From contig QHSO01000030.1 in NCBI GenBank assembly GCA_003220475.1, positions 1 to 32,748 on the forward strand: DNA of 32,748 nt, given 5' to 3'. The notes beneath the pieces were generated by a model. The model had not been told where the DNA came from, did not search any database, and was given only the letters and a program-made list of their open reading frames with translations. The DNA is from Candidatus Rokuibacteriota bacterium. Lineage in GTDB: Bacteria > Methylomirabilota > Methylomirabilia > Rokubacteriales > CSP1-6. The position numbers and the translations under genes are program-made. Numbering within the stretch: position 1 is the stretch's first letter; each line of letters opens with the position of its first letter. Below are positions 191-23,695 of the stretch, in pieces.

Positions 191-212
191 CCGGCCGTGG
201 TCGTCAAGCGGT

Positions 213-2083: not shown

Positions 2084-2105
2084 GCCGGCGTACGCTCCGC
2101 GCGCC

Positions 2106-3731: not shown

Positions 3732-3757
3732 GGGGCCTCCTGGGCGTGTCGGAGCGA

Positions 3758-4909: not shown

Positions 4910-4936
4910 GGCAAGACCATCCTTGCTGAGAGTGCG

Positions 4937-5932
4937 TCATGATACCAGAACTCCCGAGCCCGCAAACGCGCCGCGCTTGAGCGCGCTGAGCGCGCGGTTG
5001 GCATCGGTGAGCGCGAACGTCGTGGTCGCGAGCCGCACCGGGATCCGCGCCGCTTCGGCGAGCAGCGCCTCGCCGTCCGCCCGCGTGTTCGCCGTGACCG
5101 ATCGCACCTGCCGCTCGTAAAAGAGATCGCGCGTGTAGTCGAGCGGCGGCGTCGGGGTCATGTAGATGCCGGCGAGGGCCAGCGTGCCCCCGCGCGCGAG
5201 CCGCTGTAGCGCGACGGGAACGAGCTCACCGACGGGCGCGAAGACGATCGCCGAGTCGAGCGGCTCCGGCGGCACGTCGCCGAGGTCGCCCGTCCACACG
5301 GCGCCGAGCGCGCGGGCCAGCTCGCGGTGCGACGGCTCGCGCGTGAGGACGTACACGCGCGCGCCGCGCGCGCGGGAAATCTGAAGGGTGACGTGCGCGG
5401 AGGAGCCGAAGCCCCAGAGGCCGAGCCGCCCGCCGGCCGGCACCGCCGCGCGCTCGAGCGCCCGGAACCCGATGATGCCCGCGCAGAGCAGCGGCGCCGC
5501 CTCCACGTCGCCGAAGACGGCGGGAATGGCGTACGCGAACGCGGCGGGCACGACGGCGAACTCGGCGAAGCCGCCGTCGGCGTGCCAGCCCGTGAACTCC
5601 GCGCGCTCGCACAGGTTCTCGCGTGCCGACACGCAATACGCGCAGCGGCCGCACGTGCGCCGCAGCCACGCGATGCCCACGCGGTCGCCGCGGGCGAACC
5701 GCCCGCCGGCGGTCGCAGACTCCACGACCCCGACCACCTGATGGCCCGGCACGATGCGCTTGCGCACCGGCGGCAGATCGCCCTCGACGACGTGGAGATC
5801 GGTGCGGCAGATCCCGCACGCGCGCACGCGCACGAGCAGCTCGTCGTCGCCGGGCGCCGGCACGGGAACGTCTTCGCACCGGAGCGGCTGCGTCTCGATC
5901 GGCGCCTGGCCGTGCAGCACCATGGCGCGCAC
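4937..5932 (-). CDS. Zinc-dependent alcohol dehydrogenase family protein
   Basis: Medium-chain dehydrogenase/reductase of 331 residues. It has the catalytic-zinc cysteine in GICRTDLHVVEGDLP (near residue 42), GHQVVGVVE with the zinc histidine, and a structural-zinc knuckle CGRCAYCVSARENLC. The nucleotide-binding loop LGLWGFGSSAHVTLQ is a modified GxGxxG. The overall pattern resembles the small zinc-binding ADH group that handles alcohols or aldehydes with NAD(P). A GTG start at 5930-5932 lies 6 nt after the lyase stop; an ATG at 5921-5923 is an alternative. It probably interconverts an alcohol and an aldehyde in the same pathway as the flanking lyase and aminotransferase. Confidence 0.85.
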   Translation of the reverse strand: MRAMVLHGQAPIETQPLRCEDVPVPAPGDDELLVRVRACGICRTDLHVVEGDLPPVRKRIVPGHQVVGVVESATAGGRFARGDRVGIAWLRRTCGRCAYCVSARENLCERAEFTGWHADGGFAEFAVVPAAFAYAIPAVFGDVEAAPLLCAGIIGFRALERAAVPAGGRLGLWGFGSSAHVTLQISRARGARVYVLTREPSHRELARALGAVWTGDLGDVPPEPLDSAIVFAPVGELVPVALQRLARGGTLALAGIYMTPTPPLDYTRDLFYERQVRSVTANTRADGEALLAEAARIPVRLATTTFALTDANRALSALKRGAFAGSGVLVS

Positions 5933-5938
5933 CGCGGG

Positions 5939-6811
5939 TCAGCCTCCCGCGCGGGCGATGAGCTTCTTGGCGAGCGCCAGGTGCGGCGCGTCCACCATCC
6001 GGCCCTTGAAGCGGAACGCGTAGGCGCCGCGCGCGGCGTGCTCGGCGAAGGCCGCCACCAGCTCGCGCGCCTCTGTCACGGCCTCTTTCGACGGCGTGAA
6101 GACGTCGTTGATGACCGCGATCTGGCTCGGATGGATCGAGATCTTGCCCACGAAGCCCATCGCCACGCCGTCCTCGCACTCGCGCCGCAGACCGTCCAGG
6201 TCGGCGATATCCGTGTACACGGTGTCGAGCGCGTCGACGCCGGCGGCGGAGGCCGCGATCGCGCACATCGTGCGCGCGTAGCGCGGGATGTCGAGATAGG
6301 CGCCCCGCGCGTCGCGCACGCGCGGCAGACCCATGGCCGCGCCGAGGTCCTCGATGCCCCACGAGATGGCGACGGTGCGCGGCGTGGCGGTGGCGACGTC
6401 GCGGATGTTCAGCAGCCCTTCCGGCGTCTCCGTCGCGATGAGCACCAGCCGCGTGCTGCCGTGCGGAATTCCGCGGCGATGCTCGAGCCCGTCGAGGATC
6501 TGCGCAATCTCTCTCACGTCCGCCGCGTGACGCGGCTTGGGCACCACGTATCCGGTCGGCCGGCCGGCGATGGTCTCCGCGAGATCGTCGTGGCCGAGGC
6601 CCGTGGCGAGCGGGTTCATGCGCACCCAGCGCTCACGGCCGCCGAAGTCGCGCCCCAGCCACTCGCGCACGATCGGTCGGGTGGCCGCCTTGAGATCCGG
6701 CGGCACCGCGTCCTCGAGATCGAGAATGAGCCCGTCGGCCGGCAGCGTGAGCGCTCGGTCGAGCATGCGCTGCTGTCCGCCCGGGACGAAGTGCAGCGAG
6801 CGCCGCGGCAT
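5939..6811 (-). CDS. CoA-ester lyase, HpcH/HpaI aldolase family (CitE-like)
   Basis: Mg-dependent lyase of 290 residues of the citrate lyase beta/malyl-CoA lyase family, which splits or forms 3-hydroxyacyl-CoA esters such as malyl-CoA or methylmalyl-CoA. It begins RRSLHFVPGGQQRM and has the DGLILDLEDAV strand, the arginine in WVRMNP, the metal-binding glutamate in ATETPEG and the aspartate in WGIEDLGAAMG. SIHPSQ near the C-terminus closes the active site. The upstream MaoC gene is 30 nt away; the same pairing of hydratase and lyase is found in mesaconyl/methylmalyl-CoA pathways. The precise CoA ester cannot be told here. Confidence 0.88.
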   Translation of the reverse strand: MPRRSLHFVPGGQQRMLDRALTLPADGLILDLEDAVPPDLKAATRPIVREWLGRDFGGRERWVRMNPLATGLGHDDLAETIAGRPTGYVVPKPRHAADVREIAQILDGLEHRRGIPHGSTRLVLIATETPEGLLNIRDVATATPRTVAISWGIEDLGAAMGLPRVRDARGAYLDIPRYARTMCAIAASAAGVDALDTVYTDIADLDGLRRECEDGVAMGFVGKISIHPSQIAVINDVFTPSKEAVTEARELVAAFAEHAARGAYAFRFKGRMVDAPHLALAKKLIARAGG

Positions 6812-6841
6812 CAGCGTGCCCTCGCCCGACGCGGCGCGGCC

Positions 6842-7315
6842 TCAGCCCGCACTGCGCTTGCGCATCATCGCGTTACGGCGCGCGCGCATCACGAGCTCGC
6901 CGTGCTGATTCTTCGCGCGGTGCTCGAACGTCACGATGCCCCACTGGGGACGGGACTTCGATTCGCGCTTGTCCACGATCTCCGTCTCCGCATAGAGCGT
7001 GTCGCCGTGAAACATCGGCTTGGGAAACTCCACGTGCTCGAAGCCGAGGTTGCCGACCGTCGTCCCGAGAGTAGTCTCGCCGACCGACAGCCCCACGGCG
7101 ATGCCGAGCGTGAGCAGACTGTTCACGAGCGGCTTGCCGAACTCGGCCTTGCCCGCGGCGTGGAAGTCGAGGTGCAGCGGCTGCGGGTTCATGGTCAGGC
7201 ACGTGAAGAAGACGTTGTCCGCCTCGGTGATCGTGCGCCCCGGCTGATGCGCGAGCACGACGCCGACCTCGAGCTCCTCGAAAAACTTGCCCGCCATCAT
7301 GCCCCTCTTGGTCAT
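6842..7315 (-). CDS. MaoC-family (hot-dog) enoyl-CoA hydratase/dehydratase
   Basis: About 157 residues with a single hot-dog fold. It carries [18 protein letters not shown] and PQPLHLD, the position of the catalytic aspartate/histidine pair of MaoC hydratases (here N-x-Q-P-L-H), and [14 protein letters not shown]. Likely role: hydration of an unsaturated CoA ester to the 3-hydroxy ester cleaved by the lyase encoded next. The start is taken as ATG at 7313-7315, with GAGG upstream at good distance. A downstream ATG pair (7295-7300), preceded by AGAGGGG, is an alternative. It appears to be the first gene of the minus-strand run. Confidence 0.85.
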
Positions 7316-7418
7316 CGCTCGCCTCGGACGGCAGGCACTCACGCAGGCTCGCCTCGCCTGCGGCTGCGGCTCGCACGACGGCCCCGCGACGTCCTGCCCT
7401 GCGGCGGTGGGCGGATGG

Positions 7419-7424
7419 TAACAT
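7419..7424 (+). promoter_or_regulatory. -10 box for the zinc-ribbon membrane gene
   Basis: TAACAT preceded by TGG (extended -10 style). Transcription would begin about 7430, which is the ATG chosen for the downstream gene, so the message would be leaderless. No convincing -35 box. Confidence 0.4.
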
Positions 7425-7429
7425 TCCAG

Positions 7430-8035
7430 ATGTCCATGAGCGACGCCCCGCCTCCGGCCGCGCCCGGCACGGCCACCTGCGCGCGCTGCGACAAGCCGCT
7501 GACCGACGCCGATCGCGTTCTCGCGGTCGACCGCGCGTTCTGTCGGTCCTGCTACGAGACGCTGACGTTCGAGCTGCAGCAGGCGATGACACGGATGTCG
7601 CAGGACATCAACTATCCGCTGGCGGCGCTCGGTGCGGCGCTGGGCGGCGCCGCGGGCGCCCTGGCGTGGTGGGGCTTCACGGTGCTCACGCAGTTCGGCT
7701 TCGGCCTCATCGCCGTCGTCATCGGCTTCCTCGCCGGCCACGGCGCCGTGCGGTTCGCCGGTGGAAAGCGCAGCGCAGGGCTGCAGGCGATCGCCGTCGT
7801 CGCGGGCACGCTTGCGTTCCTGGTCGCGACCTATCTGGTGAACATGAGCTTCGTGAACCAGGTGCTGCACGAGCGTGGCGAGGGCTGGCGCGTCCCGTTT
7901 CCGCCCGACAGCCTGGAGACGCTCTATCGCGTCATCGCGCTGAACTTCGGGGTGATGAAGCTCGTGTTCCTCGCGATCGTGGTCTACGAGGCGTGGGTGA
8001 TACCGCGGCCGCCGAAGCTGGCGCTGGCCACGTGA
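7430..8035 (+). CDS. Zinc-ribbon membrane protein of unknown function
   Basis: About 201 residues, not recognised as a named family. The N-terminus carries two CxxC pairs (CARCDKPL and CRSCYETL) about 23 residues apart, a LIM- or B-box-like zinc ribbon. Four hydrophobic helices follow: [19 protein letters not shown], a helix around [14 protein letters not shown], one around [18 protein letters not shown], and a last around [14 protein letters not shown]. ATGs at 7415, 7430 and 7436 compete. 7415 overlaps the apparent -10, so 7430 is preferred. The stop (TGA 8033-8035) overlaps the ATG of the site-2 protease gene, so the two are probably co-translated and may work together at the membrane. Confidence 0.7.
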
Positions 8036-8853
8036 TGGACGACGCCGAGCGCCGCGCGCGCGAGATCGACAATCTGCGCGCCGTCTACCAGAGCCTGCAC
8101 GGCGGCGCCGCGCCGCGCGAGGGACGCGTGGGACGCAACGTCGCTGCGGGCGCGGCCGGCGGCGGGTTGCTGTTCATCCTCGGCAAGGCCAAGTTCCTGG
8201 GACTGCTCGCGGGGGCGCTGAAGTGGAAGACGCTCGCCACGATGCTGCTGTCCATCGGCGCCTACGCGCTCGAGTGGGGCTGGGCCTTCGCCGCCGGCTT
8301 CGTGCTCCTGATCTTCGTGCACGAGATGGGTCACGCGGTGGCGCTCCGGCGTGAAGGCATTCCGGCCGGGGCGCCGGTGTTCATTCCGTTCGTCGGCGCC
8401 TTCGTCGCGATGCACGGACAGCCGCGCGACGCGGCCGTGGAGGCGCGCGTCGCGATGGCGGGCCCGGTCACGGGCTCGCTCGCGGCGTGGGCCGTGCTCG
8501 GTGCCGGGCTCGTGTGGCAGTATCCGCTGCTCGTGGCGCTCGGCCACACGGCGGTGCTGCTCAACCTGTTCAATCTGGTACCGGTGCCGCCGCTCGACGG
8601 CGGCCGTATTGCCGGCGCCTTCACGCGCGGCTACTGGGTCGCCGGCTATGCGATCGGCGCCGTCGCCCTCGTGCTGACGCGGTCGCCGCTGTTGCTGATC
8701 GTGCTGATCCTCGGGCTCGTGACGCTCGTGCGGCGCTGGCGCGACCCCGTGCCGGGCTACGACGCGCTGCCGGCCCGGCAGCGCGTGACGATCGGCCTGG
8801 TCTACGCCGCCCTGGTCGCCGCGCTGCTCGTCACGCTTCCGCTCCACGACTGA
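8035..8853 (+). CDS. Site-2 protease family membrane metalloprotease (M50)
   Basis: 272 residues. It has the zinc motif HEMGH (residues 96-100) in a membrane helix and the second site-2 signature [12 protein letters not shown], where the aspartate is the third zinc ligand. Several other hydrophobic helices are visible. M50 enzymes cut substrates inside the membrane, commonly anti-sigma factors or other regulators. There is no PDZ or CBS domain. The N-terminal 35 residues are charged and soluble. The ATG overlaps the upstream TGA (TGATG), implying coupling to the zinc-ribbon protein. The natural substrate is not evident. Confidence 0.88.
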
Positions 8854-8863
8854 GCGTCCGGTG

Positions 8864-9721
8864 ATGTCGGTCCCGGCGCTCGCGCTCGCGAGTGCCCTCT
8901 GCTCCGCGGCCTCGACCGTCCTGATCTCCCGCGGCCTCGTGCGATACGGACCGTACACCGGCACCTGGGTCAACCTCGTCGTCGGCAGCACGTGTGTGTG
9001 GATCGCGCTGCTGTTCGCGGGCGGCCTCGGTCGCCCCACCGCGAGCGCGGTGGCGTACTTCGCCCTCGCGGGCCTCATCGGGACCGTCGGCGGCCGGCTC
9101 CTGCGCTTCATCAGCATCGAGACGGTCGGCGCATCCATCAGCGCCGCGCTCATCAATCTGAGCCCGCTCGTGGCGTCGACGCTGGCCATCGCCGTGCTCG
9201 GCGAGCGCGTCACCGTGCCGATCCTCGTCGGCACGCTGGTGATCGTGGGCGGCACGACGCTGCTCTCGGTCGGCGGCCGCGCCAGCGGCGTGCGCGCGGT
9301 CGCGCTCGTGCTGCCGCTGATGTCCGCGGTGTGCTTTGGCGTGGTCGCGGTGCTGCGAAAGATCGGGCTGAGCGGCATGGCGCCGATCCCCGGCTTCGCC
9401 GTCAACGTCACGGCCGCCCTCGTCGCCTACACGGCATTCCTGATCGCGTCGCGGCAGAGCACGTTGATGCGCTGTGGGGGTCGGAGCCTCGCCTACTTCG
9501 TCATGGCCGGGGTGGCCGAGAACGCCGGCGTGTTTCTCCTGCTGCTCGCGCTCAGCATGGGCACCGTCAGCGTGGTCGCCCCGCTGGCGAGCGTGTCGCC
9601 GATCTTCGTCCTCGTGCTGTCGTTCTTCTTTCTACGTGGGATCGAGATGCTGAACGTGCGCATCATCGCCGGCACGGTGCTGATCGTGGCGGGTGTCTAT
9701 CTGATCACGACGCTCCGCTGA
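8864..9721 (+). CDS. EamA/DMT-superfamily transporter
   Basis: About 285 residues forming ten hydrophobic helices in two homologous EamA halves, the usual layout of drug/metabolite exporters. Helix-ending motifs such as GGRLLRFISIETVGAS, INLSPLVAS (first repeat) and PLASVSPIFVLVLS (second repeat) are seen. A GTG directly precedes the ATG (8861-8863) and could be the start. It lies 10 nt after the site-2 protease gene on the same strand and is likely co-transcribed. The substrate is unknown. Confidence 0.85.
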   Translation: MSVPALALASALCSAASTVLISRGLVRYGPYTGTWVNLVVGSTCVWIALLFAGGLGRPTASAVAYFALAGLIGTVGGRLLRFISIETVGASISAALINLSPLVASTLAIAVLGERVTVPILVGTLVIVGGTTLLSVGGRASGVRAVALVLPLMSAVCFGVVAVLRKIGLSGMAPIPGFAVNVTAALVAYTAFLIASRQSTLMRCGGRSLAYFVMAGVAENAGVFLLLLALSMGTVSVVAPLASVSPIFVLVLSFFFLRGIEMLNVRIIAGTVLIVAGVYLITTLR

Positions 9722-9724
9722 CGC

Positions 9725-9754
9725 GGCCGGCGCGCACGTCGACGTCAGCCGGCC
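9725..9754. terminator. Hairpin between convergent genes
   Basis: GGCCGGC (9725-9731) pairs perfectly with GCCGGCC (9748-9754). The enclosed ACGT/ACGT segment can pair further. The hairpin covers the stop of the DinB gene and follows the EamA stop by 3 nt. There is no T-run, so it is terminator-like by position and structure only. Confidence 0.4.
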
Positions 9755-10239
9755 AGCGCCGCCCGGATCTGCGCGAGATGGTTCAGGTCGTGCTCGGCCC
9801 AGTGCTCGAGCATGTCGCGCACGCGCAGGCGGCCATACTCGGGGTGGCGCGCGGCCGCCACGCGCTGCGCCGGCGTCATGCGGCGCACCTGCTCGACGTT
9901 GGCCGCGCGCAACGCCGCGTAGGCGTCGAGCAGCGTGCGCGCGTCGCCGCGCCGGTGGCGAAGCCCCGCGGTCCACCGCTCCTGGTCCCAGGCGACGATC
10001 ACGCCGCCGGGTTCGGCCGCGAGCTTGCGAATCCGGAAGCCCAGCGTGACCTCTGCGTCGAGCAGATGGCCGATGATCTCGGTCGGCGACCATTCGCGGG
10101 GCGCCGGGCGCCGCGCCAGGCGTCCCCGCGAGGCGCGACGCAACGACGCACGGATGGCGCGGGGCGCCGCCGCCAACGCGTCGAGCACGTTGCGGCGACC
10201 GAGACGATGGTGGGGCTCTCGACACATCGGGCACGCCAT
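9745..10239 (-). CDS. DinB-like putative metal-dependent protein with N-terminal CxxC
   Basis: 164 residues of the DinB/DUF664 four-helix fold. The three metal-binding histidine positions appear as GHLLDAE (near residue 58) and HWAEHDLNHLAQI (near 145-157). The N-terminus MACPMCREPHH has a CPMC pair that ordinary DinB proteins lack, a possible extra metal site. A GAGGAGG ribosome-binding site lies just upstream. DinB-fold proteins include mycothiol- and bacillithiol-dependent transferases, but the activity here is unknown. A second member of the family lies at 24387-24914. Confidence 0.75.
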   Translation of the reverse strand: MACPMCREPHHRLGRRNVLDALAAAPRAIRASLRRASRGRLARRPAPREWSPTEIIGHLLDAEVTLGFRIRKLAAEPGGVIVAWDQERWTAGLRHRRGDARTLLDAYAALRAANVEQVRRMTPAQRVAAARHPEYGRLRVRDMLEHWAEHDLNHLAQIRAALAG

Positions 10240-10269
10240 CTCGCGACCTCCTCCTCGTGACGGATGACA

Positions 10270-10275
10270 TACAAT
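10270..10275 (+). promoter_or_regulatory. -10 box of the L-2-hydroxyglutarate oxidase gene
   Basis: TACAAT matches 5 of 6 of the TATAAT consensus. Transcription would begin about 10282, 2 nt before the GTG start, giving an essentially leaderless message. No clear -35 box. Confidence 0.45.
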
Positions 10276-10283
10276 ATCGCCCC

Positions 10284-11495
10284 GTGACGTACGACATCGC
10301 GATCATCGGCGGCGGCATCGTCGGCCTCGCCACGGCGCGCGCGATCCTCGAGCGGGCGCCGCGCGCACGGTTGACGATCCTCGAGAAGGAAGCCGACATC
10401 GCGCAGCACCAGACCGGTCACAACAGCGGCGTCATCCACTCCGGCATCTACTACAAGCCCGGATCGCACAAGGCGCGCCTGTGTGTCGAGGGAGCGCGTC
10501 TGATGAAGGCGTATTGCGACAAGAACGGCATCCCGGTCGAGACGTGCGGCAAGGTCATCGTCGCCACGTCGCAGGACGAGGTGCCGCGGCTCAAGACGCT
10601 GTACGAGCGCGGCGTCGCCAACGGCGTGCCGGGAGTGAGCATGATCGACGCCGCGCGGCTCACGGAGATCGAGCCACACGCGCGCGCACTCGCCGGCATC
10701 CACTCCCCGCAAACGGCGATCGTGGACTATCGCCGGGTCGCCGAGACGCTCGCGAAGGAGCTGACGGGTTCCGGCCTCACGCTCGAGCGGAATTTCCGCG
10801 TCGCGTCCATCGCACGCTCGCGGGGCGAGGTGCGGCTGGGCGCAGCCGACAGCCGCGTCGTGACGGCCACATATCTGGTCAACTGCGCGGGTCTGCACTC
10901 CGACACCGTCGCGCGTCTCGCGGGCGCCGCGGTCGACGTGCAGATCGTGCCGTTCCGCGGCGAGTACTACATGCTCCGTCCCGAGCGTCGGTCGCTCGTC
11001 AATGGCCTGATCTATCCGGTCCCGGACCCGGAGTTCCCGTTCCTCGGCGTCCACTTCACGCGGACCGTGCACGGCGACGTCGAGGCCGGGCCCAACGCCG
11101 TGCTCGCGCTGGCGCGCGAGGGTTACACATGGCGTCGCGTGCGGCCGGCCGAGCTCTTGGCCACGCTGCGCTTCGCGGGCTTCCGCACGATGGCCAGGAA
11201 GTACTGGCGGACCGGCGCGTACGAGATGTACCGCTCGCTGTCCAAGCGCGCGTTCGTGAGCGCGCTCCAGCGTCTCGTCCCGGCGCTGCGCGCGGAGGAC
11301 ATCCGGCCCGGCGGCGCCGGCGTTCGGGCCCAGGCGGTGACCGCGGACGGCGCGCTCGTCGACGATTTCCGCATCGTGCAGAGCGCGGACGCGGTCCACG
11401 TGCTCAACGCGCCCTCGCCGGCCGCGACGGCATCGCTCGCAATCGGCCGTCACATCGCGACGATCGCGGCGCAGACGTTCACGCTGCCCTCGTAG
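10284..11495 (+). CDS. lhgO: L-2-hydroxyglutarate oxidase
   Basis: FAD-dependent oxidoreductase of the DAO superfamily, about 403 residues. It oxidises L-2-hydroxyglutarate to 2-oxoglutarate, passing electrons to quinone or oxygen. The FAD motif IIGGGIVGLATA starts at residue 8. The LhgO/L2HGDH signature GHNSGVIHSGIYYKPGS follows near residue 50, then PFRGEYYMLRPE near 230 and YPVPDPEFPFLGVHFT. The C-terminal GGAGVRAQAV is also typical. The start is set at GTG 10284, next to the -10 box; an ATG at 10257 would precede the promoter. Neighbouring genes do not belong to an obvious glutarate pathway, so a metabolite-repair role is plausible. Confidence 0.9.
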   Translation: MTYDIAIIGGGIVGLATARAILERAPRARLTILEKEADIAQHQTGHNSGVIHSGIYYKPGSHKARLCVEGARLMKAYCDKNGIPVETCGKVIVATSQDEVPRLKTLYERGVANGVPGVSMIDAARLTEIEPHARALAGIHSPQTAIVDYRRVAETLAKELTGSGLTLERNFRVASIARSRGEVRLGAADSRVVTATYLVNCAGLHSDTVARLAGAAVDVQIVPFRGEYYMLRPERRSLVNGLIYPVPDPEFPFLGVHFTRTVHGDVEAGPNAVLALAREGYTWRRVRPAELLATLRFAGFRTMARKYWRTGAYEMYRSLSKRAFVSALQRLVPALRAEDIRPGGAGVRAQAVTADGALVDDFRIVQSADAVHVLNAPSPAATASLAIGRHIATIAAQTFTLPS

Positions 11496-11544
11496 CGTTC
11501 ACGCGCGCTCAAAGCAAAGGTCCGTCCAAGCGAAAACGCCTCTG

Positions 11545-11573
11545 TTGACAGGGGTTTGGCGATCAGTTACAGT
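11545..11573 (+). promoter_or_regulatory. Near-consensus sigma-70 promoter for the DGQHR gene
   Basis: The -35 box TTGACA (11545-11550) is a perfect match, the spacer is exactly 17 nt, and the -10 box is TACAGT (11568-11573). The start point would be about 11580, 3 nt before the ATG. The -35 lies in an inverted repeat (11541-11556, CCTCTGT with ACAGGGG, one T-G mismatch) that could be an operator. The whole interval 11496-11582 is otherwise empty. Confidence 0.75.
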
Positions 11574-11582
11574 GTCGCGGCG

Positions 11583-12725
11583 ATGATCACAGTGCCTGCG
11601 CGCCGCGTGAAACAGTTCGGAGTCGAGTTCTACCAGGCCGGCCTCTCGGCCAAGGACATCGATCGCCTGGTGAAATTCGAGGTCCTCGGCTACATCACGG
11701 ACGACATGAACGGCGACGCGAAGGCCAAGGCCCGCAAGGCCGCCGCGTCGCGCTCGCGGGTGAACTGGGACCTGCTCGAGAAGCGCATCAGCGAGAGCGA
11801 GAACGCGTATCAGCGACCGATCATCCGCCGCAAGATCGACGAGCTGGCCGCGTACTACCGCGAGTGCAAGGACGCCGCGACGCTGCCGGCGATTCCCGGC
11901 GCGGTCATCATCACCTCGGAGAAGCGCTTCACGTTCACGCCGGTCGCGGGACACCACGATCTGGGGTTGCTGCAGATTCCCGAGGAGCACGGCGTGCTGC
12001 GGGTGCTCGACGGCCAGCATCGATTGCTGGCGCTGCACTCGCTGAGCCAGACGGGCGACGCGCTGGGCATCGAGGTGCCGGCCGTGCTGTTCGACTCGCT
12101 CGACGCGCGCCAGATCGTCGAGCTGTTCGTGACGATCAACGCCAAGCACACGCGCCTGAATCCCTCGCACATCATCAGCCTGGCCGGGCGCAAGCTCTAT
12201 CCCGATCCCAACCAGGCGCTCGCGCACGACGTCATCCGCTCGCTCAACGAGGACGACACCTCGCCGCTGCACGGCGAGATCAAGATGCTCGGCACCGGCC
12301 GTGGGCGGGTCAGCCAGGCGCCGCTCGCCGAGGAGATCGTGGACCTGCTCGAGACGGTCGAGAAGCTCGGCGGAGGCGCGCGCATCCAGGAGCTGCGGCA
12401 GCACGCCAAGCGCTTCTTCCTGAACTACATGAAGGCGCTCTCGACCACCTTCCCCTCGGCGTGGGCCGGGCGCAAGTACTCGATCAAGACGGGCGCCGCG
12501 CTGCGCGCGTTCGTCCGCGCCGCGCCGGACGTGATGGCGCGTGCCAAGGAGCTCAAGCGCGAGCCGTTCGATCTCAATGGCATCCGCGAAGCCATCAAGC
12601 CGTGGGGCGAGCGGCTGCGCGATCGGCGCTTCGAGACCGAAGGTGAGTGGAAGCTGAAGCTCGCCGGCGGCACGCGCGGCACGGTGGAAGTGCTCACGCG
12701 CGAGCTGCGCGAAGCCCTGCGCTAG
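11583..12725 (+). CDS. DGQHR-domain protein (DndB-like), orphan
   Basis: About 380 residues. The defining motif DGQHR lies at residues 143-147 within VLRVLDGQHRLLAL. The conserved downstream strand FVTINAKHTRLNPSH (near 180) agrees with the DGQHR/DndB family, whose fold resembles ParB/sulfiredoxin. Known members act with DNA phosphorothioation (DndB) or DNA 7-deazaguanine systems, but many solitary copies have no assigned job. No dnd, dpd, restriction or helicase gene is nearby. The start at 11583 is supported by the promoter just upstream; a GTG or ATG further upstream would fall inside the promoter. The C-terminal 130 residues are helical and rich in charged residues. Function unknown; regulation or DNA-linked work is possible. 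Confidence 0.8.
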   Translation: MITVPARRVKQFGVEFYQAGLSAKDIDRLVKFEVLGYITDDMNGDAKAKARKAAASRSRVNWDLLEKRISESENAYQRPIIRRKIDELAAYYRECKDAATLPAIPGAVIITSEKRFTFTPVAGHHDLGLLQIPEEHGVLRVLDGQHRLLALHSLSQTGDALGIEVPAVLFDSLDARQIVELFVTINAKHTRLNPSHIISLAGRKLYPDPNQALAHDVIRSLNEDDTSPLHGEIKMLGTGRGRVSQAPLAEEIVDLLETVEKLGGGARIQELRQHAKRFFLNYMKALSTTFPSAWAGRKYSIKTGAALRAFVRAAPDVMARAKELKREPFDLNGIREAIKPWGERLRDRRFETEGEWKLKLAGGTRGTVEVLTRELREALR

Positions 12726-12744
12726 CGACGCACCTCGACCGCCG

Positions 12745-13227
12745 CTACTCGGTCCAGGCGAAGTTGACTTCGAGGATCTCGAACGTCTTCTTGCCGGCGG
12801 GCAGCTGCGCGGTGACACTGTCGCCCACGCGCTTGCCGATCAGCGTGCGCGCGAGCGGCGAGAGGATGGAGATGCGGCCTTTCGGCGGATCGGCCTCGTC
12901 GGAGCCGACGATCCAGTAGCGGATCTCTTTGCCGGATTCGTCCTCGAGCCGCACGGTGGACGCGAACGTCACGCGATCACCGCCGCGCGGCGTGTCGATG
13001 ACCTCCGCGCCGTTCACCTTGCCCTCCAGGTCGTTGATGCGCCCCTCGACGAACGACTGCTTCTCGCGCGCGGCGTGGTACTCGGCGTTCTCCGACAGAT
13101 CGCCGTGGGCGCGCGCTTCGGCGATGGCCTTGATGATGCTGGGGCGCTCGACGCGCTTGAGACGGTCGAGCTCGTCCCGCAGCCGCGCGAAGCCCGTTCG
13201 CGTCATCGGCGTGCGTTGGATCGCCAT
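12745..13227 (-). CDS. greA: Transcription elongation factor GreA
   Basis: 160 residues, the normal length. The N-terminal coiled coil (about residues 10-78) includes the tip signature [17 protein letters not shown] with the acidic residues that reach the polymerase active site. The C-terminal FKBP-like globule has the [18 protein letters not shown] strand and ends [15 protein letters not shown]. GreA stimulates cleavage of backtracked RNA by RNA polymerase. AAGGTGAG upstream of the ATG is the ribosome-binding site. The gene lies just downstream of the broken PpiD-type gene, which is read in the same direction. Confidence 0.95.
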
Positions 13228-13247
13228 GCGCTCACCTTAGCACGTGG

Positions 13248-15001
13248 TCAGGAGCGTCTCGGCAACGCCAGCATCTCGATCTTGGCTGTGCTGCGCGCCT
13301 GCGCGACCCAGGCCTCCCATGCCTGGCTCTGCTTCTGCGCGAGGACCTCGCGCGAGAGCTTGTCACGCTCGGCGGCGAGGTCGGCGATGTTCGGCGCGAT
13401 ACGCTCGAGGACCTTCAGCACGTAGTAGCCCTGCGGCGACTTCAGTGGACTCGTGATCGTGCCCGCCGATGATTGCAGCGCCGCGAGCTGCACGTCGCCC
13501 GGCAGCCGCTCCGCGGGCTTGCTCCGCGAGAAGCGAACGGTTTCCCCGGTCTGCGCGCCGACGGCTTTCGCGACGGCGGCGAAGTCGCTCGGGCGCGCGT
13601 CCGATACCAGCTTGGTGGCTCGGTCGAGCGCAACGGCCTCCGCCTTCTGCCGCTTCACCGCCGTGCTGACCTTGTCGCGAATCTCGGCGAGCGGCGGCGC
13701 CCCGGCCGGGATCGCCTCGATTGATTTCAACACGACCCGAGCCGTCTGGCCTCGGCCATGAAATCCTTCGCGCTCTGCAGCGGTGCCTTCACCTCGTCGG
13801 CCTTCGCGCGCGCGGCGCGGTCGGCGGCCTCGGCAGCGAGACGGTCCCGGATCGACGCCGCCACGTCTTTCAGCGGCTTCTTGGACGCCGCGCGTGTCTC
13901 GAGCACCTTGATGGCGTGGAATCCGAACGGCGTGCGCACGGGCTCGGGCGAGATCTGCCCTGGGCCGAGTGCGAACACCGCCGTGTCGAAGGCGGGCACC
14001 ATCTCGCCCTTGGTGATCCAACCGAGATCGCCGCCCTTGGTTTTCGTGCCGGGATCCTCGGAGACCTGGGCGGCGAGACGCGCGAAGTCCTCGCCCGCCT
14101 TGGCGCGCCGGATCACGTCGGCGATCTTCTCTCGCGCCTTGTCCTCGGCCTCGCTGCCGCCCGTCTGGGGTACCGGCACCAGCACATGAGCGGCGTGCAC
14201 CTGCTGCGGTGTCTCGAACTCCCGCGCGTGCTCGGTGTAGTACTTCTCCACCTCCGCCTCGGACACCTGGGGACGGAAGTCCTTCGGCGCCAGCATGACG
14301 TACTGCACGCGGCGGCGCTCGGGCAGCTGGAACTCCGCGGAATGCGTCTTGAGATATGCGGCGATGTCTTCGTCGCCGGCGGTGGCCGAGGACATGAGCG
14401 GCGCCGTCTCCACCAGCGCCCACGCCGCGCGAACCTCCTCGCGCCGCAGCGCGAACGCGCGCTCCAGCTCGGGGTCGGAGACCTTGATGCCGGCCCGGAT
14501 GACGCCGGAGGCCTTTTGATAGGTCAGCTGCCGCCGCACCTCCTCGACGTAATCCTTCTCGGTAAAGCCGGCGCGCTGCAGCGTGCGCTCGAATTGCCGG
14601 CGCGTGAAGCGGCCGTCTTCCTGGAAGGCGCGCATCGTGTGGACGTACGCGTTGATCTCCTCGTCGCTGGCCGCCAGCCCCTCGCCGCGCGCGCGCTGGA
14701 CGACGATCTCCTCGGCCACGAGCGCGTCGCGAACGTTGTCGGCGATGCGCAGCTGCTCGATCAGCTCGGGCGTGAGCGGCTGTCTCGAGTACTGCGTCAT
14801 CTGATTGACGTACGACTGGAACGCCCGGCGGTAGCGATCGACCGGAATCGCCTCGCCGTTGACGGTGGCGATGGCGTCGGCCCGGGCGCGCGATCCGCTG
14901 GACATCGAGCCGATGTACACCGAGGTCAGCACGAACGCGGCGATGACGCCGAGCAGGCCGACCTGCAGGACTCGGCGATAGCGACGCATGACGGTGATCA
15001 T
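13248..15001 (-). pseudogene. PpiD/SurA-type periplasmic peptidyl-prolyl isomerase, frameshifted
   Basis: The 5' part (15001-13727) encodes an N-terminal membrane anchor (VGLLGVIAAFVLTSVYIG), a SurA_N-like chaperone region and a parvulin domain (HAAHVLV...GGDLGWITKGEMVPAF...PFGFHAIKVLE). It then stops after EARRLGSC. The 3' part continues in another frame (RVVLKSIEAIPAG through PQGYYVLKVLERI to the stop at 13248), clearly the rest of the same family. The frames switch near 13740. Relatives carry some 40 more residues between these two points, so a deletion with loss of frame is likely rather than a single indel. A GAGGAG ribosome-binding site precedes the ATG. If real, the anchor and isomerase domain survive without the C-terminal region. 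An assembly error is possible. Confidence 0.8.
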
Positions 15002-15025
15002 CGGATCTCCTCGACGTCCGGCGCG

Positions 15026-15862
15026 CTACTCGTCGCGGTCGGGTGCGACGAGCCGGGGCGCCGGCGCCCCCTCCTCGGGCACCACGCGCCGGGCCACCGT
15101 GATGAATCCCGTGTGGGCCACCATGCGGTGGAACGGCCGCACGGACGTCCCCTCGATGTTCCAGGGCCGATAGAGCGTCTCGAACGTCTCCACCAGCGCC
15201 CACTCGCGCTCGCGGTTCAGCGCCTCGGCGATCTGGTGCGACTGGATGATCGTCGGCACGTAGGAGAGGAAGATGCCGCCGGGACGCAGTACGCGCGCCA
15301 TCGCCTGCGTGAGGCGCCACGGCTCGGGCAGATCGAGCAGCACACGGTCCACGGGCTCTTCGTCGCCGACGCCGTCCTCGACCGGACCGAGCCGCATGGT
15401 GAGGTTCGTGACCTCGCCGCAGCGCATGTGGATGTTGGCCAGCGCGCGCCGCGCGAATTCCTCGCGCTGCTCGAACGTGATCACGCGTCCCTCGGGGCCG
15501 ACCGCGCGCAACAGCGCCAGCGTCAGCGCCGCCGAGCCCGTGCCCGCTTCGAGGACGCGGCAGCCCGGATAGATGTCGGCCCAGAACAGGATCATCGCCA
15601 GGTCCTTGGGATAGATCACCTGCGCGCCGCGCGGCATGTCGAGCACGAACTCCGCCAGGGTCGGGCGCACCGCCAGATACCGCAGGCCCATCGACGAGCG
15701 GACCCACGAGCCCTCCGGCTGGCCGATGATCGCATCGTGCGAGATCCAGCCGCGGTCGGAGTGAAACGTCTCCGACTTCCTCAAGAAGAGGAGGTGACGC
15801 TTGCCGCGCGCGTCGATGAGCAGCACCTGCTCACCGTCCTGGAGCGGAAGGACTTCCTTCAC
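15026..15862 (-). CDS. tRNA (adenine-58-N1)-methyltransferase, TrmI family
   Basis: About 278 residues of the GCD14/TrmI family. It has an N-terminal beta domain (VLLIDARGKRHLLFLR), then the Rossmann methyltransferase core with SAM motif I VLEAGTGSAALTLALLRAVG, the acidic FEQREEFARRA, and the motif IV-like LDLPEPW that replaces DPP in this family. The enzyme adds N1-methyl to A58 in the tRNA T-loop. The start is GTG at 15860-15862, overlapping by 4 nt the stop of the upstream transporter gene (GTGA), so the two are co-translated. The downstream neighbour is the PpiD-type gene. Confidence 0.88.
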   Translation of the reverse strand: MKEVLPLQDGEQVLLIDARGKRHLLFLRKSETFHSDRGWISHDAIIGQPEGSWVRSSMGLRYLAVRPTLAEFVLDMPRGAQVIYPKDLAMILFWADIYPGCRVLEAGTGSAALTLALLRAVGPEGRVITFEQREEFARRALANIHMRCGEVTNLTMRLGPVEDGVGDEEPVDRVLLDLPEPWRLTQAMARVLRPGGIFLSYVPTIIQSHQIAEALNREREWALVETFETLYRPWNIEGTSVRPFHRMVAHTGFITVARRVVPEEGAPAPRLVAPDRDE

Positions 15863-17073
15863 CGAGTCCTGGGCGCCGGCAAGAAGCACGCGGCGGCGAA
15901 CGCGGCCAGCGGCGTCAGCGCGCTGATGGCCAGCGCGGCCGGCAGGCCGTGGTGGTCGGCGACCCAGCCGAGCACGGCGAGGCCGAGGCCACCCGCGCCG
16001 AACGCGAAGCCGACGATCAGCCCCGACGCCATGCCGGCGTACCGTGGCAGATAGGATTGCGCGAGGAGCACGGACACGGAGAAGCTGGCCGTGAGCACGC
16101 CACCGAACATCGCCAGCATGACGACGGCGAGCGCGCCCCGCGTCGCGAGGAAGAGCAGCCCGAACGGAATCGCCGCGGGCAGCACGCATCGCATGAAGGT
16201 GCGCGGGCCCCAGCGGTCGGCGAGCGGCCCCGCGAGCACCGTCCCCAGCGCGCCGGCGCCGAGAAACACGAACAGCACCGGGCCGACGACCCGTGGGTCG
16301 GCCTGCAGATGGTTGATGTAGTAGAGCGGCACGAACGTCGTGAACCCGAGGCTCGCCCACGCGCGGATCATGACAACGAGAATGAGCAGCGCCATCGCGG
16401 CCGGCATGGTCTCGCCGCGCCCGGCATGCGCCGCCGCCGGCGGCGCGGTGCGCGCACCGAAGGTGGGCAGCGCGACCAGCATCAGCGCGCTGACGAGCAG
16501 CGGCGGCACGATCAGACCGAGCGTGCCCGCCGTCGACCACGTCGCGACGAGGAACGTGACGAACAGCGGGCCGAGCGCAATGCCGACGTTGCCGCCGAGG
16601 GAGAAGTAGGAGAGGGCGGTCGCCTTGCGGTCGCCCGCGACGCCGGACGCCGTGCGATAGCCCTCCGGATGCCACGCGGCGACGCCGAGTCCCATCAGCG
16701 CCACGAGCAGCAGAATGCTCGTGTAGTCGCGCGCGACGCCGGTGAGCGCCATGCCGGCGCCGGCGACGATGATCGATGTCGGCAGGATCCAGCGGCGCAC
16801 CGTCTGATCGGCGAAGTATCCGAAGAGCGGCTGGATGATCGAGGACGTGAGGTTCGCGGCGAGCACGATCGTCCCCGTCTCGGCATACGTGAGGCCGTGG
16901 CGCTCTTTCAGAAACGGCAGGACGGCGGGCAGCGCGCCCTGCGTGAGGTCCACCACGAAGTGTCCGAGAGCGAGAAGGCCGATGAGTCCGACGTGCGGCC
17001 GCACACGCTCGACGGTCGTCGCGAACGGGGACGCGGCCGCCGTCGCGAGGGCCGCCGGCTTTGCATCAGCCAT
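15859..17073 (-). CDS. Major facilitator transporter, fosmidomycin-resistance-like (Fsr family)
   Basis: About 404 residues with twelve hydrophobic helices. The Fsr signature is clear: HFVVDLTQGALPAVLPFL in helix 1, AAWHPEGYRTASGVAG, and FSLGGNVGIALGP. The MFS loop motif appears as GPLADRWGPR between helices 8 and 9. Fsr proteins are exporters of fosmidomycin in Escherichia coli; natural substrates in other bacteria are unknown. The ATG at 17071-17073 is preferred because the upstream GTG at 17089-17091 overlaps the promoter. Its stop overlaps the tRNA methyltransferase start by 4 nt. Confidence 0.85.
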   Translation of the reverse strand: MADAKPAALATAAASPFATTVERVRPHVGLIGLLALGHFVVDLTQGALPAVLPFLKERHGLTYAETGTIVLAANLTSSIIQPLFGYFADQTVRRWILPTSIIVAGAGMALTGVARDYTSILLLVALMGLGVAAWHPEGYRTASGVAGDRKATALSYFSLGGNVGIALGPLFVTFLVATWSTAGTLGLIVPPLLVSALMLVALPTFGARTAPPAAAHAGRGETMPAAMALLILVVMIRAWASLGFTTFVPLYYINHLQADPRVVGPVLFVFLGAGALGTVLAGPLADRWGPRTFMRCVLPAAIPFGLLFLATRGALAVVMLAMFGGVLTASFSVSVLLAQSYLPRYAGMASGLIVGFAFGAGGLGLAVLGWVADHHGLPAALAISALTPLAAFAAACFLPAPRTR

Positions 17074-17082
17074 GACCCAGCA

Positions 17083-17092
17083 ATGGTACACT
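17083..17092. promoter_or_regulatory. Overlapping divergent -10 boxes (MFS gene and VOC gene)
   Basis: On the minus strand TACCAT (17083-17088) would start RNA near 17076, 3 nt before the MFS ATG. On the plus strand TACACT (17087-17092), preceded by TGG, would start RNA near 17099, about 20 nt before the VOC ATG. The two hexamers share 2 bp. Confidence 0.45.
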
Positions 17093-17119
17093 ACGGCCGC
17101 GACGGAGACATCACGCCCG

Positions 17120-17524
17120 ATGAAAATCCGCGCGCTCGGTCACGTCTCGCTCTTCGTCCGCGATCTCGCCGCGACGCGACGCTTCTATCGCGATCTGCTC
17201 GGCCTCGCCGAGACCGGCACCGGCAAGGACGGTCGGATCGTCTTCTTTTCCGCCGGCGCGCGCCATCACGATCTGTCGTGTGAGCTCGCGCGCGCGACGG
17301 GCCCGGGGCCGCAGCCGAAAGGCGTGCCGGGGCTCTATCACGTCGCGTTCGAGATCGGCGAGACGCTCCAGGATCTCGCGGCCGCGCGGCGCGAGATGGT
17401 GGCCCACGGCCTCGAGCCGTTCGGCGAGTACGCCAACGGCTTCTGCGTTCGCGACCCCGACGGTCACGAGATCGAGCTCTACGTGGAGCCGACGCCCCCG
17501 CGATCGATCGGCGAGCGACGGTAA
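17120..17524 (+). CDS. VOC-family (glyoxalase/bleomycin resistance/dioxygenase) protein
   Basis: 134 residues, a single vicinal-oxygen-chelate domain of two beta-alpha-beta-beta-beta modules. The metal-ligand positions appear as GHVSLFVRDL (histidine near residue 8), LYHVAFEI (histidine near 73) and DGHEIELYV (glutamate near 120), so a divalent metal site is likely intact. RFYRDLLGL is the usual first helix. GGAG at 17104-17107 may serve as a ribosome-binding site. The reaction cannot be assigned; it may be a dioxygenase-like or isomerase-like enzyme. Confidence 0.85.
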   Translation: MKIRALGHVSLFVRDLAATRRFYRDLLGLAETGTGKDGRIVFFSAGARHHDLSCELARATGPGPQPKGVPGLYHVAFEIGETLQDLAAARREMVAHGLEPFGEYANGFCVRDPDGHEIELYVEPTPPRSIGERR

Positions 17525-17554
17525 GGCGCTCGCCTCTCTGGCGGTCGGCCGCGC

Positions 17555-17604
17555 TTGACAGCCGGACCCGAGTGCCCGCAAATAGCAGCACTCTTCCGGG
17601 AGGT
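17555..17604 (+). promoter_or_regulatory. Probable promoter and strong ribosome-binding site for the second ABC importer
   Basis: A perfect TTGACA (17555-17560) is followed 18 nt later by a weak -10 candidate, CAAATA (17579-17584). GGGAGGT (17598-17604) sits 5 nt before the ATG. Unlike most promoters here, this leaves a short leader with a classical Shine-Dalgarno site. Confidence 0.45.
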
Positions 17605-17609
17605 GTCTC

Positions 17610-19148
17610 ATGAGCGGTCTCACTCGTCGCGAGCTGTTGAAGGCCGCCGGCGTCGCCAGCGCGGCCGCCGCACTGCCGACGGCACGGGCCGCCGCGCAGA
17701 GCACACAAAAGCGCGAGCTCGTCGTCGCCCAGGGCGGCGACATCTCGAAGTTCGATCCGCACTACAGCACGTCGTCCAACGATATCCGGATCTCGTTCAA
17801 CCTCTTCGACAACCTGGTGTCGCGGCACCCCGACGGCAAGCTCTACCCCTCGCTGGCCACGGAGTGGAAGCTGACGAATCCGACCACGTGGACGTTCAAG
17901 CTCCGTCAGCGCGTCAAGTGGCACAACGGCGACGCGTTCTCGGCGGCCGACGTCAAGTACAGTTTCGAGCGGACGTGGGACCCCAAGCTCAACACGCGCG
18001 TGAGCACGGTCTTCACCACCGTGGAGCGCGTGGAGGCGCCGGACGCGACCACGGTCGTGTTCACGACGAAGAAGCCGGATCCGCTGCTCGACGCGCGCGT
18101 GGCGTTCTACGGCGGACAGATCGTGCCGAAGAAATACGTCGAGGCCGTCGGCAACGACACCTTCAACGCCAAGCCGATCGGCACCGGGCCCGTGCGGTTC
18201 GTGTCGTGGACGAAGGACGATCGTGTCGTCCTCGAGGCCAATCCGGATTATTTCGGTGGCAAGCCGGACTTCGACCGCTTCGTCATGCGCTCGATCCCGG
18301 AGACGGCGCCGCGCATCGCCGCCCTGCTCAAGGGCGAGGTCGACATCGTCACGCAGCTGCCGCCCGACCACGCGGAGCGGGTGACCGGCAATGCGACCAC
18401 GCGTGTGGCCGGCGCGCTCTACGCCGGGCTCTACGTGCTGGCCGTCAACAGCAAGGTTCCGCCGCTCGACAACCCGCTCGTCAAGCAGGCGCTCTCGCTG
18501 GGCGTGGACCGCGAGCTGATCGTCAAGGAGCTCTGGCGTGGTCGCGGCATCGTGCCGAACGGGCCGATCGCCAAGGGCGACAATCACTACGACGCCGCGC
18601 TGCCGCCGCTCACGTACGACCCCAAGGAAGCGCGCGACCGGCTGAAGAAGTCGGGCTACAAGGGCGAGGAGATCGTGATCGAGACCACCGTCGGCTACAC
18701 GGCCAACGACAAGCCGATGTCGGAAGCGATCGTCGCGATGTGGCGCGACATCGGCGTCAACGCGAAGGTCGAGGTGCTCGAATACTCCGTGCGGGCGCAG
18801 AAGAACCGTGATCGGACGTTCAAGGGTCTGTGGTGGTCCGATCCGACCTCGACGCTCAGCGATCCCGACGGCATGATGTGGCGGCTGCTCGGCCCCGGCG
18901 GACCGCAGGATTACTGGCGCCACCCGCGCTTCGACGAGCTCGGCGAGGCGGCGCGATTCTCCGTCGACCAGAAGGTCCGCGGCCAGGCATACAAGGAGAT
19001 GACGAAGATCTTCCTCGAGCACTTCCCGTGGATCCCCATCATCCAGCCGTACGAGGACTACGGACTGCAGAAGTACGTCGACTGGACGCCGAATCCGAAC
19101 CAGGCGCTGGAGATCCGCCGCTTCGCGTTCAAGTTCCGCCGCGCCTAG
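17610..19148 (+). CDS. ABC transporter substrate-binding protein, family 5 (peptide/nickel type)
   Basis: 512-residue periplasmic binding protein with a twin-arginine-type signal (TRRELLKAAGVASAAAA, ending near ARAAAQS). Family landmarks in order: LVSRHPDGKLYPSLATEW, FKLRQRVKWHNGDAFSAADV near residue 108, IGTGPVRFVSW near 191, PLDNPLVKQALSLGVDREL near 290 and PWIPIIQPYEDYGLQKYV near the end. It is the first gene of a three-gene cluster with DppB- and DppC-type permeases. It is only distantly similar to the binding protein at 2106-3731. The ligand is unknown. Confidence 0.92.
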   Translation: MSGLTRRELLKAAGVASAAAALPTARAAAQSTQKRELVVAQGGDISKFDPHYSTSSNDIRISFNLFDNLVSRHPDGKLYPSLATEWKLTNPTTWTFKLRQRVKWHNGDAFSAADVKYSFERTWDPKLNTRVSTVFTTVERVEAPDATTVVFTTKKPDPLLDARVAFYGGQIVPKKYVEAVGNDTFNAKPIGTGPVRFVSWTKDDRVVLEANPDYFGGKPDFDRFVMRSIPETAPRIAALLKGEVDIVTQLPPDHAERVTGNATTRVAGALYAGLYVLAVNSKVPPLDNPLVKQALSLGVDRELIVKELWRGRGIVPNGPIAKGDNHYDAALPPLTYDPKEARDRLKKSGYKGEEIVIETTVGYTANDKPMSEAIVAMWRDIGVNAKVEVLEYSVRAQKNRDRTFKGLWWSDPTSTLSDPDGMMWRLLGPGGPQDYWRHPRFDELGEAARFSVDQKVRGQAYKEMTKIFLEHFPWIPIIQPYEDYGLQKYVDWTPNPNQALEIRRFAFKFRRA

Positions 19149-19153
19149 GAGTC

Positions 19154-19184
19154 GGCCGGCCGGGGCCTCGCGCTCCGGCCGGCC
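19154..19184 (+). other. Perfect 10-bp hairpin between binding-protein and permease genes
   Basis: GGCCGGCCGG (19154-19163) and CCGGCCGGCC (19175-19184) enclose an 11-nt loop. The hairpin begins 5 nt after the binding-protein stop and ends 6 nt before the permease ATG. In other importers (malE-malF is the classic case) such hairpins protect the 3' end of the binding-protein message and lower permease expression. Confidence 0.6.
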
Positions 19185-19190
19185 TCATCC

Positions 19191-20117
19191 ATGCGTGCCC
19201 TCGCCGCCTTCCTCGCCGCCCGTCTTGTCCGCGCGCTGATCGCGGTGTGGCTCGTGTCCACGGTCGTGTTCGTCGTGATGCGGCTGTCCGGCGATCCGGT
19301 GCCGCTGCTGCTCCCGGCGGACGCGCCGCGCAGCGAGTACGCGCGCGTGGCGCGAGAGCTCGGCACTGACCGGCCGCTGCCAGTGCAGTACGCGGTGTTC
19401 CTCGGTCACGTCGTGCGGGGCGACTTCGGACGCTCGATCCACTTTCGCGAGCCCGCGATGCGTGTGGCGATCGGCTACCTGCCGGCCACCGTCGAGCTCG
19501 GCCTGACGGCGTTCGCGCTCGCCGTGCTCGTCGCCGTGCCCGTCGGCGTCGTGTCTGCGGTGCGACGCAACACCGCCGTGGATCACGCGGCCATGGCGGT
19601 GGCGCTGGTGGGCCAGTCGGCGCCGACGTTCTTCCTCGGCATCCTGTTCATTCTCCTGCTGTCGCTGAAGGCCGGCCTGCTGCCGACCTCCGGTCGCGGG
19701 GACTGGACACATCTCGTCCTGCCGGCCATGACGCTCGGCGCGTTCTCCATGGCGTCCATCGCGCGCCTCACGCGCTCGGCGCTGCTCGAGGTCCTGCGGC
19801 AGGACTACGTGCGGACGGCGCGTGCCAAGGGGCTGCGCGAGTGGCGCGTCGTGGTCAAGCACGCGTTCCGCAACGCCGCCGTTCCCGTGCTGACGATCAC
19901 CGGCCTGCAACTCGGCACGCTGCTCGGCGCGTCCGTGGTGACGGAGACGGTGTTCGCGTGGCCGGGACTCGGACGGCTGGCGATCCATTCGATCTACAAC
20001 CGCGACTATCCGATCGTGCAGTGCGTGGTGTTCCTCTCGGCCCTCGTCTTCATCGTCATCAACTTCGTCATCGACCTCACGTATGGCCTCCTCGATCCCC
20101 GTATCCGTCCCCGCTGA
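19191..20117 (+). CDS. Peptide/nickel-type ABC transporter permease, DppB family
   Basis: 308 residues. The first helix (LIAVWLVSTVVFVVMRL) is followed by the DppB periplasmic pattern LGTDRPLPVQYAVFLGHVVRGDFGRSI. The EAA loop (DYVRTARAKGL...HAFRNAAVPV) is near residue 205, followed by VFAWPGLGRL and INRDYP-like YNRDYPIVQ. It ends GLLDPRIRP. Same subfamily as the permease at 1139-2083. Its 3' end overlaps the next gene by 35 nt in another frame. Confidence 0.92.
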   Translation: MRALAAFLAARLVRALIAVWLVSTVVFVVMRLSGDPVPLLLPADAPRSEYARVARELGTDRPLPVQYAVFLGHVVRGDFGRSIHFREPAMRVAIGYLPATVELGLTAFALAVLVAVPVGVVSAVRRNTAVDHAAMAVALVGQSAPTFFLGILFILLLSLKAGLLPTSGRGDWTHLVLPAMTLGAFSMASIARLTRSALLEVLRQDYVRTARAKGLREWRVVVKHAFRNAAVPVLTITGLQLGTLLGASVVTETVFAWPGLGRLAIHSIYNRDYPIVQCVVFLSALVFIVINFVIDLTYGLLDPRIRPR

Positions 20118-23673: not shown

Positions 23674-23680
23674 GGCGTTC

Positions 23681-23687: not shown

Positions 23688-23695
23688 CACTGGCG

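Follow-up and report, generated by a model that had tools for sequence, protein, structure and literature searches.

Proteins of the DndB type that carry a DGQHR motif are discussed in the searched literature as parts of DNA-modification defence. A stretch of 32,748 nucleotides from a Candidatus Rokuibacteriota bacterium (contig QHSO01000030.1, here called the window), part of a 4.8-Mb assembly that is 92% complete, contains a DGQHR gene that a preliminary description had singled out as an orphan with the best promoter in the window. This raises the question of what such a gene does by itself and how its expression is controlled. The answer favored here, to which we assign a probability of about 0.6, is that the gene encodes a DGQHR protein of the DndB/ParB-Srx superfamily that stands alone, is inherited vertically, and represses its own transcript, which is probably leaderless, through a dyad that is private to the gene. 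The features of the locus are listed in Table 1.

Table 1 Features of the DGQHR locus, in coordinates of the window.
Feature	Position	Strand	Details and basis
26-bp conserved block, consensus AAAAnnCCTCTRTTGACAGGGGTTTG	11533..11558	+	Column counts, 43 rows; 44-row alignment
Putative operator, dyad AAAnnCCT-N8-AGGnnTTT	11534..11557	.	Arms 11534-11541 and 11550-11557; site counts in family genomes
-35 hexamer TTGACA, inside the dyad	11545..11550	+	Promoter search of the window
-10 hexamer TACAGT, 17-nt spacer, ends 9 nt before ATG	11568..11573	+	Promoter search; orthologue rows
DGQHR (DndB-superfamily) protein, stand-alone, 380 aa	11583..12725	+	ATG start; TIGR03187 123.1 bits, PF14072 52.9 bits
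Predicted ParB/sulfiredoxin-type NTPase fold, residues 9-191	11607..12155	+	VIA-align of AlphaFold model
DGQHR motif, residues 143-147, then LLALH	12009..12023	+	Invariant in 23- and 42-row alignments

The gene and its genomic setting

The gene had been described as spanning positions 11541-12725; the start of the coding sequence has been moved to the ATG at 11583, and positions 11541-11582 constitute the promoter. The window and 47 of 48 locus rows have a start of the form ATGAT followed by C or T, the sole exception being L078, which has GTG. The window yielded no Rfam match and no tRNA. In Rokubacteria, the gene is preceded by that of an L-2-hydroxyglutarate (L2HG) oxidase and followed by greA, surA, and trmI, each of which recurs in part of the loci; the gene upstream differs among lineages. 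Operon partners were ruled out in Rokubacteria, because the 3' neighbors are convergent or variable. No neighbor is common to more than five of the 12 loci compared in Acidobacteriota.

Protein family and predicted fold

The assignment to the DGQHR family is correct. Residues 6-318 match the DGQHR domain profile TIGR03187 with 123.1 bits (curated cut-off 58.85), and residues 5-197 match the DndB profile PF14072 with 52.9 bits (gathering score 29.1). The scores against the equivalog profiles lie far below their cut-offs: 26.1 bits against 328 for DndB (TIGR03233), 46.6 against 450 for DGQHR_dnd_1, and 50.7 against 300 for DpdB (NF041060, residues 71-358), with no DpdA over the cut-off in 59 relatives.

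The N-terminal half of the protein is predicted to have the ParB/Srx (ParB-CTPase) fold, on the evidence of the better of two AlphaFold models (mean pLDDT 72, pTM 0.49, residues 33-80 below 50). The 12 best rows of the VIA-align comparison, with Z scores from 8.1 to 6.0, comprise PadC, ParB, Noc, KorB, pNOB8 ParB-N, and a sulfiredoxin. PadC, ParB, Noc, and KorB have Z scores from 8.1 to 6.6, where a value under 8 can mean a common arrangement; the 12 rows align over model residues ~9-191, with two pNOB8 rows extending further, and SspE follows with a Z of 4.2. Foldseek alone, run with the better model, gave no match in the PDB below an E of 0.1, with PadC (E 0.59, probability 0.77) placed beneath unrelated rows; viral DNA-sulfur-modification proteins were matched at E 6e-5. 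With the first structure model (pLDDT 65.9), Foldseek returned nothing meaningful. The GxxRxxA of the DGQHR region presumably resembles ParB box II. The C-terminal half is helical and has no clear structural match; the only match in the search of solved-structure sequences, NifE at residues 272-346 (E 0.002), is regarded as a helical chance match. Structural comparison, which the preliminary description had proposed with DndB, places the N-terminal half of the predicted model in the ParB/Srx NTPase fold, and the literature assigns DndB to the same fold (PMC10853773, partial text); a search for a DndB structure for direct comparison gave none.

Promoter of the DGQHR gene

The promoter claimed earlier, TTGACA-17-TACAGT, is present; it matches the consensus at ten of 12 positions and is the sole sigma-70-like match in the 32.7-kb window. 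Shuffled versions of positions 1-20000 contain 1.0 +/- 1.2 such matches, and since shuffled sequence yields about one, the promoter match is not significant by itself. Among orthologues, 42 of 44 rows have an exact TTGACA. The gap between the -10 hexamer and the ATG is 8-9 nt in 34 of the 44 rows, 20-22 nt in six, and 54-57 nt in four; the rows with long leaders have a purine-rich stretch upstream of the ATG. Transcription usually starts 6-8 nt downstream of the -10 hexamer. Therefore, where the -10 hexamer ends 9 nt before the ATG, as in the window, the leader would consist of a few bases at most, and the mRNA of the DGQHR gene is probably leaderless or near-leaderless, with the start position deduced from the sequence.

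A conserved dyad surrounds the -35 hexamer

The -35 hexamer lies within an inverted repeat, as the preliminary description had noticed. The repeat consists of AAACGCCT (11534-11541) and AGGGGTTT (11550-11557), separated by eight nucleotides; it is imperfect, with seven of eight pairs formed and one internal mismatch. A repeat finder that relies on perfect seeds did not report this imperfect repeat when run on the window. The conservation of the repeat in front of orthologues has now been examined. When the rows are aligned at the -35 hexamer, a sharp conserved block extends from -12 to +13 around TTGACA (43 rows), and the columns that flank it are near background until the -10 region. The symmetry center of the 26-bp block is inside the -35 box, and the block is kept upstream of orthologues although their upstream contexts differ. 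Of the 43 rows, which were chosen by their right arm, 41 to 43 retain the left-arm AAA and 42 to 43 the right-arm TTT. Nothing in a sigma-70 promoter demands such conservation of the left-arm AAA. Locus L066, where no recognizable operator site was found, is left out of the operator statistics, and L054 is also left out of the 43-row column counts, which select for the right arm. The 43 or 44 rows include near-identical relatives; there are 38 distinct sequences.

The best dyad setting tried was AAAnnCCT-N8-AGGnnTTT, with 80% Watson-Crick pairs in the 38 distinct sequences. The arms are conserved but do not compensate one another: no covariation was found between them, as 170 of 500 shuffles equaled the observed score. 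Because the arm pairs do not covary, the case for an operator draws on conservation, symmetry, and privacy. One arm has decayed despite retention of the gene at L052, L054, L055, L057, L059, L063, and L079. The operator is missing before the orthologues of the NC10-type class relatives L068-L070 and of Acidobacteriota; therefore, self-control through the dyad would not be general to the protein. The 110 nt upstream of the Acidobacteriota orthologues (L116-L139) often contain an A-run, a TTGAG-type -35, and a TACAAT-like -10, with no visible dyad.

The dyad is private to the DGQHR gene

Of the 36 family genomes searched, 31 contain the sequence TTGACARGGGTTT, at 34 sites in total, and 30 of these sites are directly upstream of the DGQHR gene; the genome of the window has exactly one. 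The pattern AAANNCCTN8AGGNNTTT, which is free of promoter letters, has one site each in 21 of the 36 genomes, 20 of them at the DGQHR gene, and a reversed control pattern has one site in the same genomes. Among 23 genomes from outside the family, the dyad is present in none of three members of the order and in five of 20 members of the class, with unrelated inner letters. A model of 29 positions finds one place in the genome of the window at E<=1, and just five places away from the DGQHR gene in the 36 family genomes (best E 0.0011). The training rows of the model came in part from genomes that it then searched, many of them, so its matches at the DGQHR gene arise by construction and only the scarcity of matches elsewhere is informative.

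Upstream 24-mers of the neighboring genes served as controls. No comparable block precedes greA in 32 loci, where the best mean identity is 0.58 versus 0.85 for the DGQHR gene in 48 loci. The value for surA is 0.84 in 23 loci, from a segment 70-93 nt upstream of the gene that lies within the trmI reading frame of the window. The L2HG oxidase gene gave 0.68 in ten loci, and the MFS gene 0.96 in only four close loci.

The remaining site of the dyad pattern in the 36 genomes is in front of mreB in genome G014 (L141, C80:34000-36800), where a full dyad with an embedded TTGACA is located at C80:35297-35320, ~85 bp before the gene. The right arm is degenerate in the DGQHR promoter of the same genome, and an mreB-type dyad site was seen in this one genome only. 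A second promoter with TTGACARGGGTTT occurs before a gene of one family, encoding 350-400 residues, in G016 and G058, and an upstream sequence that resembles it is found in G019 (L104, L110, L142). The left halves of these extra sites differ from that of the DGQHR dyad.

Proposed mechanism and alternative regulators

From these observations and from the likeness to DndB, we infer that the DGQHR protein binds the dyad, acts as a repressor, and uses nucleoside triphosphates. As a dimer, the protein would occupy the private dyad over the -35 box and thereby keep RNA polymerase away from the promoter of its own gene. It would be released from the dyad when NTP is bound or hydrolyzed in a ParB-type pocket around GQHRLLA, as reported for DndB. 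Transcription would then begin at the ATG or a few bases before it, and the protein would be translated from a leaderless or near-leaderless mRNA.

It is conceivable, if unlikely, that another transcription factor, unlinked to the DGQHR gene and dedicated to it, uses the dyad as its operator, in which case the DGQHR protein would be only the regulated product. The binding of the protein to its own dyad is a deduction and a private site would fit any dedicated regulator; furthermore, the orthologues in Acidobacteriota and at L068-L070 do without the dyad. However, a transcription factor that controls only one gene is usually encoded by that gene or by one next to it, and the upstream gene varies here. 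In addition, DndB, another member of the superfamily, controls its own promoter (PMC4507180, partial text), as is proposed here for the DGQHR protein.

An improbable explanation dispenses with a regulator altogether, so that the 26-bp block would be an unusually strong constitutive promoter, composed of an A-tract, the -35 hexamer, and spacer contacts, which sets a fixed level of the protein. The exact TTGACA in 42 of 44 rows is in line with this, the A-run upstream of the -35 hexamer could be an UP-like element, and Acidobacteriota orthologues often have an A-run before a TTGA-type -35. By contrast, sigma-70 has no known need of a fixed GGGGTTTG in the spacer or of CCTCT before the -35 hexamer, and the two conserved halves of the block are symmetric. 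Moreover, TTGACARGGGTTT is nearly absent elsewhere in the family genomes, and it is therefore not a general design of strong promoters.

Core status and inheritance of the gene

The DGQHR gene is present as a single copy in 53 of 57 family genomes, and the four genomes without it are assemblies that are 64-84% complete. It is also found in all three remaining genomes of the order and, overall, in 68 of 99 relatives. No orthologue was detected in the 15 genomes of family f5, just two of which have distant DGQHR matches. In Acidobacteriota, 28 of 297 genomes encode a full-length orthologue with 52-57% identity, and four more have only relatives with 29-33% identity. Pairs of the orthologues under comparison share at least 47% identity, and the DGQHR proteins of Dnd systems, phages, and plasmids are 17-25% identical to them; for this comparison, the row of the window was taken from a gapped alignment and L154 is outside the tree.

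The protein is more conserved than its neighbors in all loci where both genes reach 90% coverage: 30 of 30 for GreA, 16 of 16 for TrmI, 22 of 22 for SurA, 26 of 26 for the L2HG oxidase, and five of five for the MFS protein. The dN/dS of the L2HG oxidase at L031 was left out because of a frame artefact. Such strong conservation would be odd for a repressor of its own promoter only, which is a counterpoint to a pure autoregulator. Because the conservation of the protein exceeds that of GreA, it is likely to have a conserved output other than the control of its own promoter.

No orthologue-grade match was found in 72,556 plasmid records, in 50,697 phage records, or in a scan of viral contigs. The viral contigs contain 213 DGQHR open reading frames, of which only the phage group L164-L167 falls below E 1e-10 on the profile. 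In its core status, single copy, and vertical inheritance, the gene is unlike mobile defence genes. It is thus very improbable that the protein is an effector of defence or nucleotide depletion, a role suggested for some proteins with the ParB fold, with a repressor-like promoter holding it in check. Distant DGQHR relatives on phages and plasmids do adjoin partner genes, and DndB has been proposed to degrade NTP (PMC10853773, partial text); however, defence genes are patchy and mobile, whereas the DGQHR gene is near-universal in the family and stands alone. In phages and a plasmid (L160 3905-5840, L161 2800-4779, L163 3884-5754), a hypothetical gene of 0.9-1.0 kb directly follows the distant DGQHR gene, which suggests a two-gene module.

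Search for dnd and dpd systems

Partner genes were sought in the genome of the window and in its relatives with the profiles of DndC (TIGR03183) and DpdA (NF041059). The designation of the gene as an orphan holds for the whole assembly, which has one DGQHR gene, no DndC, and no DpdA over the cut-off. DndC was found in one of 59 relatives and DpdA over the cut-off in none; membership in a dnd or dpd system encoded elsewhere was thus not borne out. The "stand-alone" part of the earlier suggestion of a stand-alone regulator is supported by this absence, and its "regulator" part is the function proposed above. The sole genome with DndC, G025, has two further DGQHR genes, one of which ends ~0.3 kb before DndC, and its core DGQHR copy is on a separate contig.

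Weak DpdA matches in 12 of the 59 genomes, that of the window included, are taken to be ordinary tRNA transglycosylases, because they are partial and below the cut-off, and an E. coli control also matches below the cut-off. At positions 23014-24385, the window contains a divergent pair of genes for a queuosine-precursor transporter (Vut_1/TIGR00697) and queC, 11 kb from the DGQHR gene; as evidence of a dpd system the pair was rejected, since these are ordinary queuosine genes. That the DGQHR gene serves a phosphorothioate or deazaguanine system whose genes lie in another part of the genome, as its Pfam and NCBIfam relation to DndB and DpdB and the distant queC pair could hint, is largely refuted by the lack of DndC in its own genome, the position of the single DndC of the relatives beside other DGQHR genes, the lack of DpdA over the cut-off, and scores short of the DndB and DpdB equivalog cut-offs. 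As a core gene that travels alone and has a private site in its promoter, the gene may well have a job unrelated to DNA modification.

Wider meaning

The openly licensed literature searched, including the available part of PMC8569181, gave no account of a core DGQHR gene that stands alone. It is possible, though doubtful, that the gene belongs to a housekeeping lineage within the DndB superfamily. Its ParB-fold protein would sense NTP, repress its own gene, and fill a conserved role in the cell, unconnected with DNA modification, in Rokubacteria, related Methylomirabilota, and part of Acidobacteriota; DndB and DpdB would in that case be copies of this self-limiting switch that defence systems recruited. 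Being single-copy, slow to evolve, and monocistronic, with a private operator, the gene offers a clean system for studying a DGQHR/ParB-fold switch by itself. Such a system could show which nucleotide is read and which DNA is gripped, free of confounding DNA modification, and a core gene of an uncultured lineage of soil bacteria gains a function that can be tested.

Comparison with known systems

The DGQHR proteins of Acinetobacter phage MD-2021a, Pf phage PfAC19, and Providencia plasmids share the DGQHR domain with the core family; however, they are only 17-25% identical to it and adjoin a hypothetical partner gene. The predicted N-terminal half of the protein aligns with PadC, ParB, Noc, and KorB, the last of which is also a transcriptional repressor according to its PDB title. 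The sequence identity to these proteins is 14-19%, and the helical C-terminal half is different. Unlike the setting of ParB-CTPase-fold proteins, the window has no parA neighbor and no match to the ParB family. DpdB (NF041060) has the DGQHR domain in common with the protein; however, the score is below the cut-off of 300, and no DpdA exceeds its cut-off in the 59 relatives.

The closest functional likeness is offered by DndB-type proteins. DndB of Salmonella binds TACG-N10-CGTA motifs in its promoter and regulates dndCDE and its own gene (PMC4507180, partial text), DndB is described as an ATP-dependent negative regulator (PMC10853773, partial text), and a DndB-like protein binds both ATP and GTP (PMC12704722, partial text). 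The ATPase activity of DndI, a relative of DUF262, needs the R of its DGQQR (PMC11662687, partial text). DndB (TIGR03233/PF14072) and the protein described here share the superfamily, the DGQHR motif, and a palindromic element in their own promoter, which here is a putative operator. The elements differ, TACG-N10-CGTA in Salmonella versus AAAnnCCT-N8-AGGnnTTT in Rokubacteria, and unlike dndB the Rokubacteria gene has no dnd genes beside it and is core, monocistronic, and vertically inherited.
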